Source: Anaerolineaceae bacterium oral taxon 439 (GTDB taxonomy: Bacteria > Chloroflexota > Anaerolineae > Anaerolineales > Anaerolineaceae). From it: a stretch of 64,000 bases of DNA. Both the position numbers and the translations under genes were made by a program. The DNA lies in the NCBI GenBank assembly GCA_001717545.1, contig CP017039.1, positions 1,426,001 to 1,490,000 on the forward strand, written 5' to 3'. Shown here piece by piece: positions 10,078-55,024 of this stretch (the first letter of the stretch is position 1; the number at the start of each line of letters is the position of its first letter). Below the pieces are notes generated by a model that did not search any database, was not told the origin of the DNA, and was given only the letters and a program-made list of their open reading frames with translations.

Positions 10078-10118
10078 GAAAAAAACAACGGGGCCCATTC
10101 TTCATCGAGCGGGCCCCG
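10078..10118 (-). terminator. Terminator of the agmatine operon
   Basis: CGGGGCCC (10089-10096) and GGGCCCCG (10111-10118) form an 8-base GC stem. On the minus strand it is followed by TTGTTTTTTT. It lies 22 bases after the ptcA stop. Confidence 0.85.
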
Positions 10119-10140
10119 CGTCATCATAAAAAATTCAGCT

Positions 10141-11169
10141 TCAGATCATGCCTCGATCCGCCATGAAACGGTCGAGGTCTTCTTTCGCCGCGGCGATCCT
10201 GAGTTCGGACGCGGCCTGCTCGCGCTGATACTGCGTCAGGTAGACGAGCAGCCCGCGCATGGCGGTCAGGCGGTTCCCGGCCTGAACCCAGCAAAGCGAC
10301 GATTCGGAGTCGGCGACTTCGTCGGTGACGTCTTCGCCGCGCGTCGCCGGAAGGCAGTGCATGAATTTGCAGCCGATATTTCCGAGCTGCATCAGATCCC
10401 GGTTGACCTGATAATCCTTGAAAGTCCGGACGCGTTCTTCCTTCGGCGTTTCCGCTTCGTAAAGCCCGTACCAGACGTCGGTATAGATGAAATCCGCGCC
10501 TTTGACGCTGTCGCGCCGGTCGGTGACTTCCCAGCTTCCGCCTGAAGCTTTGCAGTTGGCTTCCATGATCGCTTTATGCTGTTCGAGAAGCTGGTTGGAT
10601 TTCGGCCCATAATGAACGAACCGCATTCCGAGCTTGGTCGTGATAAAGCCTAACGACGCGCAGACCTGCGTTCCGTCGCCGACGAAAACGACCTTGACGT
10701 CTTCGAGCTTTTTCCCGCGCGGAAGATTCTCGACAATCGTACAAAGGTCGCCGATTTCCTGCGTCGGGTGGTTGTAATCCGACATGCCGTTCAGGACAGG
10801 GATCGTACAGGCTTCGGCGAGATCGACGACGGTCTGATGCGTAATAACGCGCGCCATGACGATATCGACGAGCTGCGAAAGGACGCGGCCGGTATCGCCG
10901 ATCGTTTCATGGCCGCCGAGCTGGATCATGCCCGGACCGAGGTACTGCGCGTGGCCGCCCATCTGGCCCATCGCCGTCTGGAACGAGACGCGCGTCCGCG
11001 TCGACGACTGCTGGAAGATCATGCCCAGCGTTTTATCTTTCATCAGCGGCGGATAATAGCCGGCGCTGATGCATTTCTTGATGGTCAGCGACAGGTCGAT
11101 GATGTCCAGCAGCTCCTGCTTGCTGAAATTGGCGGTGTCGATAAAATGACGAAGATGATATTGATTCAT
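10141..11169 (-). CDS. ptcA: Putrescine carbamoyltransferase
   Basis: 342-residue transcarbamylase. It probably converts N-carbamoylputrescine and phosphate to putrescine and carbamoyl phosphate, the second step of the agmatine deiminase pathway. The carbamoyl-phosphate loop SSTRTR is at 55-60, with HPTQ and HCLPA further on. The stretch [18 protein letters not shown] (about 77-94) is the substrate-loop form seen in putrescine enzymes; ornithine enzymes differ there. The C-terminal extension ([20 protein letters not shown]) fits the extra helix of PTCs. It follows aguA by 41 bases, with GCAGGAG before the ATG. The pairing with agmatine deiminase decides against ornithine carbamoyltransferase. 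Confidence 0.88.
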
Positions 11170-11210
11170 AGTTGGTTCTCCTGCGGTCCGGAGCTGCCGG
11201 GCGCGCGAAA

Positions 11211-12326
11211 TTATTTCTTAACCGACGGCTGCTGCTGCGTGATGCAGTGGATATTTCCGCCGCCGAACGCGACTTCTTCGGTCCGGACCGGTTCGATAAC
11301 GTAGCCGGGGAACATGGCCTGAACCTGCTCAACGGCGAGCGCGTCGTTCTCGTCGCCATACTGGGGCATGATGATCGCGTTGTTCGTGATCAGGAAGTTC
11401 ATGTATGAAGCGATCGAGATTTCGCCTTCTTCGCGCGGAATCGCGCCGGTCGCCGTGTCGATCGTATCGGCGCCGATCAGGCGGCAGGGCTTCCGGGTCA
11501 GGCAGAGTTTATGGACCTTGAGCTTTCGTCCCTTGGCGTCCGTCGCTTCGCAGAGCGTCTTATAAGCGGCCTGTGCCTGCTCATAGAACGGATGGTCTTT
11601 GTCGTCGGTATAGATACAGGCGACTTCGCCGGGGCGGACGAAGCAGGCGACATCGTCGATATGTCCGTTGGTTTCGGCGGGGTCGATTCCGTCCTTGATC
11701 CAGATAATTTTGTCGAGGTTCAGGTATTCCACGAGCTTTTCTTCGATTTCCTCGCGGCTCATGTCCGGGAAGTTCCGGCCTGAATCCGGATTCAGCAGGC
11801 ACATTTCCGTCGACAGGAGCGTTCCTTCGCCGTCGACATGGATCGAACCGCCTTCGAGGATGAAGCCGTCGGTCCGATAGGAATCGATTCCCTGCAGGTC
11901 GCAGATCTTCTGCGCCATGGCGTCGTCGTTCGCCCAGGGGAAGTACAGCCCGTCGACCAGTCCGCCCCATGCGTTGAATTCCCAATCGCAGCCGCGGATT
12001 TCGCCGGTTTTATCGTTGACGACGAACGTCGGACCGCAGTCGCGGACCCAGGAATCGTCGCTGGAACATTCGACAACGCGGATATCTTCGGGAAGACGCG
12101 CCCTTGCGTTGGCGTATTGGGCGTTGCTGACGAGCATCGTGACCGGCGTATGCTTCGCGATCGCTTTCGCAACTTCTGTGAACGCTTTCTGTGCCGGTTT
12201 CGCGCCGTTGCGCCAGTTGTCCGGCCGCTCCGGCCAGATCATGAAGACGTGGTCCTGCGGTTCGAACTCTCCGGGCATGCGGAAGCCGTCCTGTTTCGGT
12301 GTCGAGTCATAGATACGTTTTGCCAT
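11211..12326 (-). CDS. aguA: Agmatine deiminase
   Basis: 371-residue peptidyl-arginine-deiminase-like hydrolase that converts agmatine to N-carbamoylputrescine and ammonia. Family hallmarks are [23 protein letters not shown] at the N-terminus (about 18-40), [14 protein letters not shown] (about 89-102), [31 protein letters not shown] and the catalytic-cysteine motif [14 protein letters not shown] near the C-terminus. All five propeller-type blocks are present, so the enzyme looks intact. It starts at 12326 with AGGAGG upstream and sits between the antiporter and ptcA genes. Confidence 0.95.
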
Positions 12327-12377
12327 TTTGATATTCCTCCTGAAATTTATGGTTTTATAGTTTATTGTTGCTTGTTT

Positions 12378-13784
12378 TCAGCTCGCCAATCGATCGGAAT
12401 CGGTCCGATTGACGTTGCTTTCTTTCCGTTCGCGAAGCCCGATCAGGACTTCGCCGAAGATGATACTGATAATCGCGCCGATCGTAATCGGAAGAACCGT
12501 CGCGAGCGTCGCCGAATCGAAGGACAGCGGGACCGCGGTAAAGAAGATCGAAATCGCGATCAGGACGATCGGAACGTACGCCATGAGCTTCAGCATAACC
12601 GGACCGCCGGGAACCTTAATCGGGCGTTCGGTATCGGGATCCGTTTCCCGGAGCTTCAGGAACGCCGGGAATACCGGAACGTAGCTTAGCAGCAGCAGGA
12701 CAAGGTTGAGCGCGAAGAAGCTCCAGAAAAGCTGTGAATCCGGCGCGACGATATTAACGATGACGCCCAGGAGGATGACGCCGGAGGCGACGATCCCGTT
12801 CATGAGCGCCGAGCCAATCGGCATGTCATTCTTACTCCAGCGCCTGGTAAAGAATTTCGGCATGTCGCCGTTATCCGCGGCGTAGGCGGCGGTCGAGTTG
12901 ACGCCCATCGACCAGGAAATCATGTTGCCGAAGAGAGTTACGAGGAAAAGCAGCGCGACTAAGCTGATAAAAATCCCGGTTTCAGTTCCGCTGATCAGCA
13001 TGACGGCGTCAAGCAATCCGGAATCGACGCTGATTTCCGAAGTTGGGATCGCCGCGCCGATGCCTGATCCGCCGATGAGGTAGATCGCCGCGATGGCGAG
13101 CCCGCCGATGACGATCGCCTGAGGAATCTGCTTCTTCGGATTCTGCATGTCTTCGGAGAAGGTGCAGATGACTTCGAAGCCGAGCATGTTAAAGATAATG
13201 ACGGAAATGTACGAAAGACTGTCGAGATTGAAGCTGGGGAGGAACGAACCGAGAGACATGTCGTTCGCGAATCCGTTTTTCAGTCCGAAGTAGAGACCCA
13301 TTCCGCCGACCAGCAGCGCTAAGACGACCTTGATAACCGCGCTGACGTTCAGGATCACGATATTATCGCAGACAGGGTAAAAAGCGATCAACGTCACGAT
13401 CCAGACGAAGGCTAACTGAATCAGGGCGCTCGGGATAATCCCGATTTCGATTCCGGTCGCGATCGTAATCAGCTCGGGGCACATCACCGCCAACGATGCC
13501 ATCCATAGCGGGAAGTTCAGCCAGTACCACCAGGACGCGCGCGCTCCCCAGCGGGTCCCGGGGAAGGCTTGATGGATCCAGTCGTAGAGTCCGCCTTCGC
13601 CCTGATACGTCGTTCCTAACTCTGACGAAATTAAACCGTACGGTAAAAGGAAAGCGATAATCATGAAGAGCCACCAGAAAAACTGGCTGTTCCCGATCGC
13701 GGCGACGGGAGCCGCCGCTTCGGCAACGAAGACAACGCAAATCACGGAGAGAATGACGCTGCCCAAATTGAATTTTTTATTCAT
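12378..13784 (-). CDS. aguD: APC-family amine antiporter, probably agmatine/putrescine
   Basis: 468-residue inner-membrane transporter with about 12 hydrophobic segments. It belongs to the amino acid-polyamine-organocation superfamily; YQGEGGLYDWIHQAFPGTRW (about 60-79) is the conserved cytoplasmic loop. As first gene of the operon ahead of aguA and ptcA, it most likely exchanges external agmatine for putrescine, as AguD does in enterococci and lactococci. This substrate is inferred from context; glutamate/GABA-type antiporters are the closest alternative. The start at 13784 has AAAGGA upstream. No carbamate kinase gene is next to the operon. Confidence 0.8.
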   Translation of the reverse strand: MNKKFNLGSVILSVICVVFVAEAAAPVAAIGNSQFFWWLFMIIAFLLPYGLISSELGTTYQGEGGLYDWIHQAFPGTRWGARASWWYWLNFPLWMASLAVMCPELITIATGIEIGIIPSALIQLAFVWIVTLIAFYPVCDNIVILNVSAVIKVVLALLVGGMGLYFGLKNGFANDMSLGSFLPSFNLDSLSYISVIIFNMLGFEVICTFSEDMQNPKKQIPQAIVIGGLAIAAIYLIGGSGIGAAIPTSEISVDSGLLDAVMLISGTETGIFISLVALLFLVTLFGNMISWSMGVNSTAAYAADNGDMPKFFTRRWSKNDMPIGSALMNGIVASGVILLGVIVNIVAPDSQLFWSFFALNLVLLLLSYVPVFPAFLKLRETDPDTERPIKVPGGPVMLKLMAYVPIVLIAISIFFTAVPLSFDSATLATVLPITIGAIISIIFGEVLIGLRERKESNVNRTDSDRLAS

Positions 13785-13812
13785 TGAAGAATTCCTTTCT
13801 GTTTTTTATTTT

Positions 13813-13831
13813 CCGCCTTGTCGAAAGGCGG
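13813..13831. repeat. Small hairpin in the antiporter leader
   Basis: CCGCCTT (13813-13819) and AAGGCGG (13825-13831) pair across 5 bases. There is no T-tract after it in either direction, so it is not an obvious terminator. It would lie in the 5' leader of the antiporter mRNA. Confidence 0.35.
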
Positions 13832-13893
13832 TTCGCTGCTGAATTCTCGTTTCCTGCTGTTGTAAAAGTTCTGCTCGGGATAGCAATGCGTCT

Positions 13894-13923
13894 GGTCGTG
13901 AAAGACGTTGCTTTCACCTGACC
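13894..13923. promoter_or_regulatory. Palindrome between the agmatine operon and its regulator
   Basis: GGTCGTGAAAG (13894-13904) and CTTTCAC-CT-GACC (13911-13923) form an interrupted palindrome. The 7-base inner arms are perfect and 6 bases apart; the GGTC/GACC outer arms are offset by two bases. It lies 110 bases before the antiporter start and 275 bases before the regulator start. The position suits an operator for the LuxR-type protein. No other feature was found in the 413-base divergent region. Confidence 0.5.
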
Positions 13924-14197
13924 GAGAGGATATCATTCTTCCAATCGGTTGGCAATTTCATCCGGCTAAACTTCCGGTAGATTTTTATTGGACCTTCGGG
14001 TTTATTTTTTCTGAAGCGACTAAACCTGATGAAGTCAGTTCAAAACGAGAATCAGTACAGACAGCAGCTTCGCTGGATTTTGTGTCAGATTGGCATAAAT
14101 GCCTGAATTCTGGGCGGTTTGGGATGGAAATCTGATAGAATTCAAAAAAATGTCGGTTGGAAAGACGTGCCCCTTCCGGCGGGGAGAACATACGCGG

Positions 14198-15250
14198 ATG
14201 ATTGATCCGACGCTGTCTTTTGTTTATAACGTTATTCAGATTGTCGTTTACGCTTCGGTTATTTCGATCGGTATCAGCCTGAAAATCAGCAGGAATTCTA
14301 AAACGGCTGGTCCGATCGTCGGGTTGTTCCTTTTCATTCTGGCGGATTCCGTGGTTATTTTCATGACCGAATTTCTGCCGGATTTCATGCAGTGGTATGA
14401 GGTTAATTTTATCCGGACGCCTTCTCTGAAAATGCTGATCTTTTTAGGAACCGGGTTCTTTATGTTGCTCTGCTGGAGCTCGGCGACCGGGTCGGTTTTT
14501 ACCGGCGGGCAGGGACTGCTGCTTTTTGGGTTCGGATTATGGCTGATTTTTGTTCCGTTGCTGCTGGACGGAGCGGTCGAATCGTTCCTTTTCTTTTCAG
14601 GCTATCAGGTTTTCTGTATCTGCGTATCGATTTACGCGCTCTGGAAAATCCGGAAGCTCGATCCTTCCCGGCTCCAGCTTCCCGCTCAATGGATCTGGAC
14701 GTTCCTGATTGTCACGGTTGTTTTCTGCGTGCTGATTATGGCTGAGGATAATTGCGTTATATTTTATATAGATAATTATGACTTAATGAAAGGGGATCTG
14801 AATATCTATTATCGGAGCGTGAGCGAGGATTTGCTTCGGTTCGTTTACAGCGGGCTTATTCTTTCTTTATTTATTGACCAGCTCCGGCGCGGCGAAACGA
14901 AGCGTACGGTGGGAGCGGCTTCTTACGCGGGCGAAGCCGTCTGCCCGGCGGCTGCCTTGTCTACGTCGGAAGCGGATTCGGAAAGCGGACCGGTTCGGAC
15001 GCCGGCAGAGTATAAACGCATGAAGTTCGCGCGGATACTGACGCTGACCGAACGGGAGGAAGAGGTTTTGACGCTGCTGATCGACGGGCGGAGTAATCAG
15101 GATATCAGCGGCGCGCTCCATATTTCGGTCGGAACCGTCAAGGCGCATGTCCATGGGATTTATCGGAAAGCGAAAATTACGCATCGTTACGAGCTGAGGA
15201 CGTTATACGAAGCGTTCGATCCGGAGGAGTCGGACGAGCCGGGCTTATAA
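14198..15250 (+). CDS. Membrane-bound LuxR-family regulator, AguR-like
   Basis: 350 residues counted from ATG 14198, which has GGGGAG 11 bases upstream; earlier in-frame ATGs at 14099 and 14150 lack a ribosome binding site. The N-terminal 250 residues contain about seven hydrophobic segments (for example QIVVYASVISIGISL and FLIVTVVFCVLIM). A linker of about 50 residues follows. The C-terminal LuxR-type helix-turn-helix reads LTEREEEVLTLLIDGRSN, QDISGALHISVGTVKAHVH, RKAKITHRYEL. The same layout, seven transmembrane helices plus a LuxR domain encoded divergently from the agmatine genes, is known for AguR of Enterococcus and Lactococcus, a membrane one-component agmatine sensor. Orthology is inferred. 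Confidence 0.8.
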   Translation: MIDPTLSFVYNVIQIVVYASVISIGISLKISRNSKTAGPIVGLFLFILADSVVIFMTEFLPDFMQWYEVNFIRTPSLKMLIFLGTGFFMLLCWSSATGSVFTGGQGLLLFGFGLWLIFVPLLLDGAVESFLFFSGYQVFCICVSIYALWKIRKLDPSRLQLPAQWIWTFLIVTVVFCVLIMAEDNCVIFYIDNYDLMKGDLNIYYRSVSEDLLRFVYSGLILSLFIDQLRRGETKRTVGAASYAGEAVCPAAALSTSEADSESGPVRTPAEYKRMKFARILTLTEREEEVLTLLIDGRSNQDISGALHISVGTVKAHVHGIYRKAKITHRYELRTLYEAFDPEESDEPGL

Positions 15251-52429: not shown

Positions 52430-53233
52430 TCAGGCAGCGGTTATGATCGTTCCGGCCCGCTCACCCGACAGGGCCCGTTCGATTGCCCCCGGCTTGTCCC
52501 CGGAAAAAATCAGGGCTTCTTTCACGGTTCCGCTGCGGAGAAAACCGGCGACAGCGTCGATTTTTGACTTCATGCCTCCGGTTACGTCGGGATAAATCGA
52601 TTCTTTTACATATTGTAATTCGTAATCCTGATTAAGCGGAAGGGAAATTTCGCGGATCGGTTTTTCCCGGATTGGAAAGTCCGAATATATTCCATCTTCG
52701 ATTCCGGCCAGAAGGACGCGCGACGGTTCCTGGAGTCGTTCGAGTATCGCGCCGAAAAGGTCTTCTGTCGAAACGATCGTTCCGCCGCGGACAGAATCGA
52801 AAGCTGTATCGCCGAAGACGAGCGGGATCAGCCCGTTGTCGAACGCGCGAATTAATGGCCCCAGATCCCATTCGACGATTCTCCCGTCGGTGCAGCGGAT
52901 CCCGTCCATTGCGGTAAACGAGAGAACCGGGAGCCCAACCTCGCGCAGCGCGTCCAGGACGAGGCGGTTCAGCGCCGTCGCGTCTGAATGCACCTCGGCG
53001 AAGCCGCGCCATTCTTCGACGCTGTGAACGCCGGACCGGGTCTGGTATTTTTTGGCTGGAATATGACCGAACGATCCGGAGCCATGACCGAGGATCAGCC
53101 GGCAGTCCGTTCCGGCGTTCCGGCGGCAGGCGGCGATTTCAAGCGCAATCCGGCTGAGCGTTTCACGGCGCAGCGTTTTCGCTTTCGCTTTCTCGGTAAT
53201 CAGGGAGCCCCCCAGTTTCAGCAGCTGGATCAT
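52430..53233 (-). CDS. Isopentenyl phosphate kinase
   Basis: 267-residue amino-acid-kinase-fold enzyme that phosphorylates isopentenyl phosphate to IPP. The start is LLKLGGSLIT (4-13). The diagnostic GHGSGSFGH is at 49-57, in which His57 is the IPK-specific histidine that contacts the substrate phosphate. FGDTAFD and VTGGMKSKIDA are further active-site blocks. It overlaps the mevalonate kinase gene by 4 bases. Both belong to the alternative mevalonate pathway known in archaea and in Roseiflexus of the Chloroflexota. Confidence 0.92.
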   Translation of the reverse strand: MIQLLKLGGSLITEKAKAKTLRRETLSRIALEIAACRRNAGTDCRLILGHGSGSFGHIPAKKYQTRSGVHSVEEWRGFAEVHSDATALNRLVLDALREVGLPVLSFTAMDGIRCTDGRIVEWDLGPLIRAFDNGLIPLVFGDTAFDSVRGGTIVSTEDLFGAILERLQEPSRVLLAGIEDGIYSDFPIREKPIREISLPLNQDYELQYVKESIYPDVTGGMKSKIDAVAGFLRSGTVKEALIFSGDKPGAIERALSGERAGTIITAA

Positions 53234-54153
53234 AGGCGGATGATGGCCCCTGCGCGCGTGAGCTCTTCGGCAATCGTTTTCTTTTCGGTGTCGTTACGCG
53301 CTAATACGACGAAATTGCCCCCGCGCCCCGCGCCGGTCAGTTTTGCGCCAATTGCTCCGGCGCCGCGCGCGATCGCGAGGAACCGGTCAAGTTCGGCGCA
53401 GGATACGTTCAGCTCCTGCAGGAGCCGCTGATTCTCGTTCATCAACGCTCCGATTTCGTCGATCCGATTCTTGTGGAGGGCGGCTGCGGCGCGTTTGGAG
53501 ATTGATCCGATTGCGTCGATGATCGGTTTATTCCGCGGATAGTCCCGGCGAACGCCTGTAACGATGTCGATCGTACTGGCCTTAATCCCGGTATCCGCGA
53601 TCAGGATCGGCAGCTGTCCGTTCGAGCGGATCGGGCGGACGGGCTGGCCGCGGGTAAAGAAAATCGACTGCTCATAGGCGATCACCGTATTGTCGATCCC
53701 GGAGGGTGCGCCATGATAGATCTTTTCAATTTCGAACGCGATCGCCGATACCTCCGCCTCGTCCGGCGACAGTCCGAATCTCCGCGCAAAGGCGCGGATG
53801 ATCGCGACGGAAACCGCCGCGCCGGAGCCTAATCCGGCCGCGACCGGAATTGAAGACTCGATTTCAAGCCGGCCGTTCCGTGGGAGGCTTTTCCCGAACC
53901 GCAGGCAGAGCAGTTCTAAAAGCTTTCGCTGCGGATGCGTTTCCGGGAGCGCGTCCGGCGGCGAGTCCAAGCCGATCGATCTGGAAACGATCCGGAACCC
54001 GGGGTTTTCAGGACCGTCGATCAGCGCGGCGAACGCGCGCAGCGCGGGAAGCGGGATCGCGATTCCAGGCTGCCCATAGACGACGGCATGTTCCCCGAAG
54101 AGAATCGTTTTCGCCGGCGCGGAGGCGAATTGGGTAAGGCGGTTTTTATCCAT
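53230..54153 (-). CDS. mvk: Mevalonate kinase
   Basis: 307 residues from ATG 54153 (the open frame allows 54174). GHMP-kinase blocks are KTILFGEHAVVYGQPG (about 12-27), the phosphate loop ESSIPVAAGLGSGAAVSVAI, GAPSGIDNTVIAYE and the C-terminal GAKLTGAGRGGNFVV. It makes mevalonate-5-phosphate. A decarboxylase linking it to isopentenyl phosphate must be elsewhere. The start codon overlaps the end of the UbiA-type gene, and no ribosome binding site is evident. Confidence 0.92.
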   Translation of the reverse strand: MDKNRLTQFASAPAKTILFGEHAVVYGQPGIAIPLPALRAFAALIDGPENPGFRIVSRSIGLDSPPDALPETHPQRKLLELLCLRFGKSLPRNGRLEIESSIPVAAGLGSGAAVSVAIIRAFARRFGLSPDEAEVSAIAFEIEKIYHGAPSGIDNTVIAYEQSIFFTRGQPVRPIRSNGQLPILIADTGIKASTIDIVTGVRRDYPRNKPIIDAIGSISKRAAAALHKNRIDEIGALMNENQRLLQELNVSCAELDRFLAIARGAGAIGAKLTGAGRGGNFVVLARNDTEKKTIAEELTRAGAIIRL

Positions 54154-55024
54154 GAAAATACAGCGCGTAAACAACGATTGCGGCGTAGATCAGGAGCGTC
54201 GCCTGAAACGGACGGTCGGAAAGCAGGATTTCTTCCGGAGCGTCGCCTTCGTTCTCCTGATAGATCAGGTACTGATAGCGGAAGATCCCGTAGACGACGA
54301 CTGGAATCGTCAGCATCATCAGGTTGTTCCCGGGGAGCGTCGGGCCTGAGAACGTGTACAGCGAATAGGACAGGATCGTAATCGACGAAACGATCGTGAT
54401 CAGCTGATCCAGCAGGGTAACGCTGTACCGCGAGAGCGCAGGACGGACGACGTCCTTCTCGATATCCGTCCGGATCATCTCGCTCCGGCGTTTCCCGAAC
54501 CCCAGGAAAAGAGCGATCATGAACGTCATCAGGTAAAGCCAGGGCGAGAAAACCTTAACGCTGATCAGCGATAATCCGGCGATGACGCGCAGGATAAATA
54601 AACAGCCGATCAGGATGACATCGACGATGACCTCATTCTTGAGAAATTTCGTGTAGATGATGTTGATCGTGATAATTGCCAGTTCGGCTTGGAAAAAGCC
54701 GAGCGAGAGCTGGAATCCGAGGCAGAGCGAGACTGCCGTCAGCGCGAGGGCAAGGATAATGGCGTTGACGGGCGGAACCTCGCCGTTAGCGAGCGGCCGG
54801 TTTTTCTTTTTCGGGTGCGCCCGGTCGGCTTCAAGATCGTTCAGGTCGTTGAAGATGTACGTTGCTGCGTACAGCGCGCAGAGCAAGGCGAAGCCGGCGA
54901 GCGTTTTCAGGAAAGAACTCTTCAGGCGAAGTTGTCCGTCGAAGACGAGGGGAATGAAGATGAAAACGTTCTTTGCCCATTGTTTCGGACGAATCAATTT
55001 CAGATATGGTTTAATAACCGTCAT
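54146..55024 (-). CDS. UbiA-family prenyltransferase (decaprenyl-phosphate phosphoribosyltransferase-like)
   Basis: 292-residue membrane protein with about nine hydrophobic segments. The first Asp-rich motif is FNDLNDLEADRAHPKKKNRP (about 58-77), and the second is SEMIRTDIEKD. The HPKKKNRP form and the opening LIRPKQWAKNVFIFIPL resemble decaprenyl-phosphate phosphoribosyltransferase (mycobacterial UbiA) more than quinone or chlorophyll enzymes. It is the first gene of the mevalonate kinase-IPK operon, so it may use the prenyl chain made from that pathway. No Shine-Dalgarno site is seen; a -10 box lies 6 bases before the ATG. Confidence 0.82.
   Translation of the reverse strand: MTVIKPYLKLIRPKQWAKNVFIFIPLVFDGQLRLKSSFLKTLAGFALLCALYAATYIFNDLNDLEADRAHPKKKNRPLANGEVPPVNAIILALALTAVSLCLGFQLSLGFFQAELAIITINIIYTKFLKNEVIVDVILIGCLFILRVIAGLSLISVKVFSPWLYLMTFMIALFLGFGKRRSEMIRTDIEKDVVRPALSRYSVTLLDQLITIVSSITILSYSLYTFSGPTLPGNNLMMLTIPVVVYGIFRYQYLIYQENEGDAPEEILLSDRPFQATLLIYAAIVVYALYFHG

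Follow-up and report, generated by a model that had tools for sequence, protein, structure and literature searches.

An agmatine deiminase operon with a putative AguR-type regulator and an unlinked carbamate kinase in Anaerolineaceae bacterium oral taxon 439

Where does the carbamoyl phosphate of an agmatine deiminase locus go when no carbamate kinase gene (arcC) stands beside it? This question is raised by a stretch of 64,000 nucleotides (hereafter the window, i.e., positions 1426001-1490000 of the single 2,945,494-bp contig of Anaerolineaceae bacterium oral taxon 439, with a genome completeness of 99.89%), in which an initial annotation had described an antiporter, an agmatine deiminase (AguA), a putrescine carbamoyltransferase (PTC) and a divergent seven-helix LuxR-type protein, and no carbamate kinase nearby. 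Our analysis recovered all four genes at that place. We consider it probable that they form an agmatine deiminase (AgDI) operon induced by agmatine, with enzymes of clostridial type and a carbamate kinase provided in trans, from which carbamoyl phosphate may partly go to pyrimidines.

The minus strand carries, in this order, the antiporter (aguD, 12378-13784, 468 amino acids), AguA (aguA, 11211-12326, 371 amino acids) and PTC (aguB/ptcA, 10141-11169, 342 amino acids), with gaps of 51 and 41 bp, and the LuxR-type gene (aguR, 14198-15250, 350 amino acids) diverges on the plus strand across a putative regulatory region of 413 bp (13785-14197); all four reading frames are open among the open reading frames (ORFs) of the window. 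PTC reached 530.9 bits with TIGR04384 (cut-off 500), its closest solved structure is a PTC (PDB 3txx), and judged from its 62% identity to the Enterococcus faecalis enzyme the gene is not a chance ORF. According to the excerpt of PMC3282769, the PTC signature combines STRT and HCLP with the absence of a lysine two residues before STRT, a C-terminal helix motif and a 230-loop of the form (Y/W)(G/W)(V/L/I)X in place of SMG. The window PTC agrees with this signature (Q two residues before STRT, HCLP, DVWYGLY without SMG, and LDRFM near the C-terminus), and the ornithine carbamoyltransferase of the same genome (L045) has the SMG loop (DTWVSMG). AguA reached 547.3 bits with TIGR03380 (cut-off 381.8) and has agmatine deiminases as best PDB relatives (2ewo/2jer). 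The antiporter belongs to the APC family by PF13520, shares 65% identity with the APC permease encoded in the ptcA operon of E. faecalis (L049) and is a candidate agmatine/putrescine exchanger. Read from these sequences, the operon is an AgDI system, a kind already known. Behind the PTC stop, a hairpin resembling an intrinsic terminator (10084-10122, minus strand; -24.7 kcal/mol, z -2.74, with 4 of 200 shuffles folding equally well) is followed by a T-run, and therefore the transcription unit probably ends there; no arcC remnant was seen by eye in the three minus-strand frames of the 279 bp between PTC and htpG.

In the mechanism that we propose, AguR, a one-component membrane activator, would sense extracellular agmatine and switch on aguD-aguA-aguB. 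The antiporter would exchange agmatine for putrescine, AguA would convert agmatine into N-carbamoylputrescine and ammonia, and PTC would release putrescine and carbamoyl phosphate by phosphorolysis. A single chromosomal carbamate kinase would turn carbamoyl phosphate into ATP, ammonia and CO2 and would also serve the other carbamoyltransferases, while a part of the carbamoyl phosphate would plausibly go to pyrimidine, perhaps arginine, synthesis. The same enzymes could instead supply putrescine for polyamine synthesis from internal agmatine, since PTC and AguA together give putrescine and no match to N-carbamoylputrescine amidohydrolase was found in the genome; however, the antiporter in the operon and the AguR-type membrane sensor fit a fermentative layout, which makes this non-catabolic role improbable.

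The kinase expected by the proposed AgDI mechanism is indeed encoded elsewhere, as the initial annotation had envisaged. The genome search detected one arcC gene (G000:C1:9081-10013), ~1.4 Mb from the operon, whose product reached 362.4 bits with TIGR00746 (cut-off 358.25) and has carbamate kinases, with 1e19 in first place, as its closest PDB relatives; its presence rules out that the organism lacks the enzyme. No carbamate kinase was found in the 64-kb window, where the only one of the five amino-acid-kinase-fold matches of the genome (52430-53233) is an isopentenyl phosphate kinase (158.1 bits, cut-off 120), which adjoins a mevalonate kinase (241.7 bits, cut-off 163.05; both within 52430-54174, minus strand). 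In a draw of 61 genomes of the family, a carbamate kinase match was present in 58 and exceeded the cut-off in 56. G344, a genome of the same genus, has two carbamate kinases, and genes of the two kinds that adjoin arcC here stand beside one of them: judging by sequence, presumably a transporter of the AEC type and a protein like mevalonate decarboxylase (the pairs are 39% and 57.5% identical). Because of these neighbours, the carbamate kinase looks like an old resident, which suggests that it was not part of an acquired operon.

To what extent is such a locus unusual? The best 80 named loci from the PTC scan were considered, to which the counts on listed loci refer; 5 without a visible AguA were dropped, and of the other 75 another 14 were set aside because a contig end was too near (<2 kb on either side), with arcC and LuxR genes scored by small home-made profiles (>60 bits, within 7 kb). 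Among the 61 well-flanked PTC/AguA loci listed, arcC was found within 7 kb in 36 and not in 25, and because of these 25 loci an operon without linked arcC is ordinary rather than remarkable. Of the 75 listed loci with AguA, 19 scored for an AguR-like gene, as did 6 of the 25 without arcC (two of Streptococcus and four of Paraeggerthella/Collinsella/Adlercreutzia). An imported operon left non-functional for want of a linked carbamate kinase, an idea that the missing arcC would favour, is very hard to sustain, given the four open frames, the conserved PTC signature residues, the kinase in trans and the frequency of unlinked arcC.

The regulator ORF is open from 14099 to 15250 (plus strand), and its start is more likely at 14198 than at 14099 because the homologues begin there. 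Its product reached 53.4 bits with PF00196 (cut-off 23.5) and displays seven helices by hydropathy (two overlapping rows merged) followed by a GerE helix-turn-helix; the AlphaFold2 model also has seven helices (mean predicted local distance difference test score 86.6, predicted template modelling score 0.66). Matches occurred in 8 of 72,556 plasmid records, all from Enterococcus (25.9-30.5% identity over 94-95% of the query), and by comparison of coordinates a PTC match lies within ~0.3 kb of the regulator match in all eight; the 14 best regulator matches display 27-32% identity. Judged by these homologues, the regulator is a relative of AguR, and it may sense agmatine. The excerpt of PMC4696319 describes L. 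lactis AguR as sensing extracellular agmatine and activating PaguB, and that of PMC3796520 describes AguR as activating the agu genes of E. faecalis. In an alignment of 24 regulators including that of the window, with the DNA-binding domain left aside, Y10, E58, E183 and R206 are invariant and P75, Q137, I180, D184, I188 and E210 almost so. Most of these residues fall, in the AlphaFold2 model, in those halves of the helices that would point out of the cell given a cytoplasmic C-terminal domain, and such an outward carboxylate cluster would suit the doubly charged agmatine. A fold comparison of the model with the PDB gave no match at E <= 0.001; LuxR-type DNA-binding domains made up most of its top rows, and for the membrane part even the best rows had a TM-score of at most 0.43 over the query.

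Within the divergent region, GTTTA/TAAAC words occur at 13967-13971, 14000-14004 and 14021-14025, a number reached in 12 of 500 shuffles. Elsewhere, a tandem GTTTA-N5-GTTTA, a candidate AguR site, is present in 11 of 18 divergent regions (L049, L053, L056, L062, L068, L070, L072, L075, L102, L104 and L121), with a shuffle mean of 0.04 and a maximum of 2 in 300; note that the word was first noticed in the sequences used for this count, so that the operator test is not independent. The 18 regions, whose ends come from a rough script, were thinned from 22 by dropping four Enterococcus regions by hand.

Where the operon enzymes come from can be read from their relatives. In a PTC tree of 98 rows, built with a quick method and with Shimodaira-Hasegawa-like approximate likelihood ratio test (SH-aLRT) supports, the window PTC belongs to a supported set of five (SH-aLRT 95) whose other four rows are Clostridia, and the named Chloroflexota and same-family PTC-like proteins make up a separate group with a support of 80 (17 rows, in which one genome occurs twice); a program warning concerned long branches that meet in other parts of the tree. 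Among the loci listed, the closest PTC is 83% identical (Clostridium sp. Marseille-P2415, L053), the closest agmatine deiminase 74% (L064) and the closest antiporters ~70% (L054 and L059), all four loci being Clostridia by title or tree place. A PTC-like match (E <= 1e-80) was found in 28 of 147 family genomes, including that of the window, and the other 27 display 46-51% identity; none was found in the 13 other genomes of the genus. In a phylum draw of 301 genomes, two pass the PTC cut-off, namely that of the window and G208; in another one, G104, the gene is split over two contigs. On this basis, the operon enzymes apparently derive from a clostridial source by transfer.

If the kinase is present, which other use could the carbamoyl phosphate have? 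Searched for the large subunit of carbamoyl phosphate synthetase (carB; carA was not searched), the genome gave a best match of 18 bits, whereas all 14 control genomes exceeded the cut-off. The genome encodes PyrB, PyrI (over one of two models), PyrC (by a broad model), PyrF, PyrE and PyrD, together with a PyrK-type iron-sulphur domain. A carbamoyl phosphate feed to pyrimidine or arginine synthesis, which the initial annotation had offered as an alternative to a kinase elsewhere, becomes more plausible because this large subunit is undetected while PyrB/PyrI and an ornithine carbamoyltransferase are present. Agmatine-derived carbamoyl phosphate may thus supply pyrimidines as well as ATP. The sole carB match, a 404-amino-acid ORF (L156:910-2124, C1 near 941.5 kb), passes NCBIfam NF009402 ('carbamoyl phosphate synthase-like protein', 381.4 bits, cut-off 218); from its 18 bits on carB and its Pfam content (PylC-like_N and a single ATP-grasp), we judge that it is not a disguised synthetase.

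The lack of a carB match extends to much of the family. Indeed, carB exceeds the cut-off in 16 of 147 family genomes and is found as two pieces in 3 more, a fraction that remains soft as many of the genomes are incomplete (64 of the 147 are >=90% complete with <=5% contamination). Among the 82 family genomes whose aspartate carbamoyltransferase (ATCase) match scores 313 bits or more, a full carB is present in 16, a split one in 1 and neither in 65, and a carbamate kinase match is present in 48 of the 51 carB-less genomes of the 61-genome kinase set. Among the papers listed by a literature search that covered little of the subscription literature, none dealt with synthetase loss in Anaerolineae or Chloroflexi. 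It is conceivable, as a tentative proposal, that the family largely gave up the synthetase and obtains carbamoyl phosphate from reversed carbamoyltransferases (PTC acting on agmatine here, plus purine-linked ones) and/or from a synthetic carbamate kinase, with agmatine as a pyrimidine precursor in this strain.

A rival reading would make the operon chiefly anabolic, agmatine being the carbamoyl donor for pyrimidines (through PyrB) and arginine, and ATP being secondary. The lack of a carB match beside the Pyr set listed above is in its favour, as is the lack of carB in 24 of the 28 genomes of the family in which a PTC-like match was found. In addition, the excerpt of PMC13260591 provides a precedent: Thermococcus kodakarensis, which has no synthetase, derives the carbamoyl phosphate of pyrimidines from arginine via ornithine carbamoyltransferase, and disruption of its arcC has little effect, which shows that the source can be a carbamoyltransferase rather than carbamate kinase. 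However, 53 of the 65 family genomes with ATCase and without carB have no PTC-like match either (12 do), and therefore another source must suffice in these, either a synthetic carbamate kinase or other carbamoyltransferases. We regard a chiefly anabolic operon as rather unlikely, and retain the inducible AgDI operon with partial diversion to pyrimidines.

Which other sources are encoded? The genome has five carbamoyltransferases (PTC, the ornithine enzyme, PyrB, YgeW and an unassigned one). YgeW (759 bits, cut-off 500) lies beside YgeY, and the fifth enzyme shares a cluster with ABC-transporter-like genes and another YgeY-like gene. Each of the two loci for YgeY-type hydrolases (L046:1923-9802 and L047:6859-9300) includes a clustered carbamoyltransferase gene. 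Their gene content suggests ureide or purine breakdown, which would yield carbamoyl phosphate too. A dimethylargininase-like protein, below its model cut-off (250 vs 450 bits), could make citrulline; the best arginine deiminase match in the genome was 21 bits.

Neighbourhoods of carbamate kinase genes in related genomes point in both directions. In the same-genus G344 and G314, the carbamate kinase gene lies directly behind pyrB (by 36 and 23 bp, respectively), in a series of PyrK-like, PyrD, PyrB, carbamate kinase and dihydroorotase/allantoinase-like amidohydrolase genes (L160:4923-10593 and L161:7298-12591) that sits behind ABC-transporter-like genes; proteins were tested for G344, and the G314 row was read by eye. 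From its composition, this row would be either a pyrimidine operon in which carbamate kinase replaces the synthetase or an orotate-fermentation operon, and a kinase gene behind pyrB would fit carbamoyl phosphate synthesis or, with the row running in the opposite direction, the breakdown of pyrimidines. In G327 (L162:3837-10957), 8-oxoguanine deaminase, adenine deaminase, GntR-like, ATCase-like, ornithine-carbamoyltransferase-like and carbamate kinase genes form a series, a layout seen by eye also in L159, L167 and L168; this is likely a purine-fermentation cluster, and the layout suits catabolism.

Several observations weigh against the AgDI operon as we interpret it. PTC also exceeds the ornithine carbamoyltransferase model TIGR00658 (306.1 bits, cut-off 280.85), and E. 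faecalis PTC uses ornithine, though poorly, according to the excerpt of PMC3282769; the signature residues nevertheless disfavour the window PTC as an ornithine enzyme. The antiporter matches 14 NCBIfam models, none to its cut-off. The regulator shares only ~30% identity with known AguR proteins; the tandem GTTTA-N5-GTTTA is not found in the window region even with two mismatches allowed, the window being one of 7 of the 18 regions without it. The carbamate kinase clears the arcC cut-off narrowly, and the direction of its reaction is not readable from sequence. Both G344 kinases are equally close to it (78.4% and 78.1%), the neighbours alone indicating orthology. Finally, the L156 ORF would count against the pyrimidine feed if our judgement of it is wrong.

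Altogether, the operon takes a fermentation system already known, membrane sensor included, into a lineage that does not belong to Bacillota, apparently through transfer. The kinase puzzle was answered by the genome search and is replaced by the question of carbamoyl phosphate supply. If the family-wide proposal is true, pyrimidine synthesis would proceed without its textbook first enzyme in much of a bacterial family, and the debated supply of carbamoyl phosphate by carbamate kinase or by catabolic carbamoyltransferases would become testable in bacteria.

Compared with known systems, Thermococcales likewise combine pyrimidine genes and a carbamate kinase without the synthetase (excerpts of PMC13260591 and of the review PMC6022934), but these are archaea relying on ornithine carbamoyltransferase and tested genetically, whereas here PTC would act in a bacterium. 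Other agu loci, from the same family (G208, L042) and from named Chloroflexota (L117, L118 and L124), contain antiporter, AguA and PTC with no nearby arcC found, but in the order PTC-antiporter-AguA and with PTCs of a separate clade, 47-49% identical to that of the window; an Lrp/AsnC-type gene lies just upstream in G208 (L042), the split G104, L117, L118, L120 and L124 (Pfam check for G208, L042, only; family-locus flanks read for G208 and G104 only). The enterococcal aguR-aguBDAC loci (E. faecalis L049 and E. gilvus L050) share the functions and the divergent AguR with the window, at the L049 identities given above for PTC (62%) and antiporter (65%), but their order is B-D-A-C with arcC in the operon, against D-A-B with unlinked arcC here, the AguR identity is ~30%, and their PTC belongs to a different clade. 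Two clostridial loci, L056 (Lachnospiraceae) and L062 (Ruminococcaceae, where the antiporter reads in two frames), have the antiporter-AguA-PTC order and divergent LuxR gene of the window, and the window PTC is 80% and 74% identical to theirs, respectively; they differ in having arcC right after PTC, where the window operon stops. The initial annotation was right on the AgDI gene set and on a regulator related to AguR, but the locus is not a copy of the enterococcal one: its gene order is that of the two clostridial loci, and PTC groups with Clostridia.

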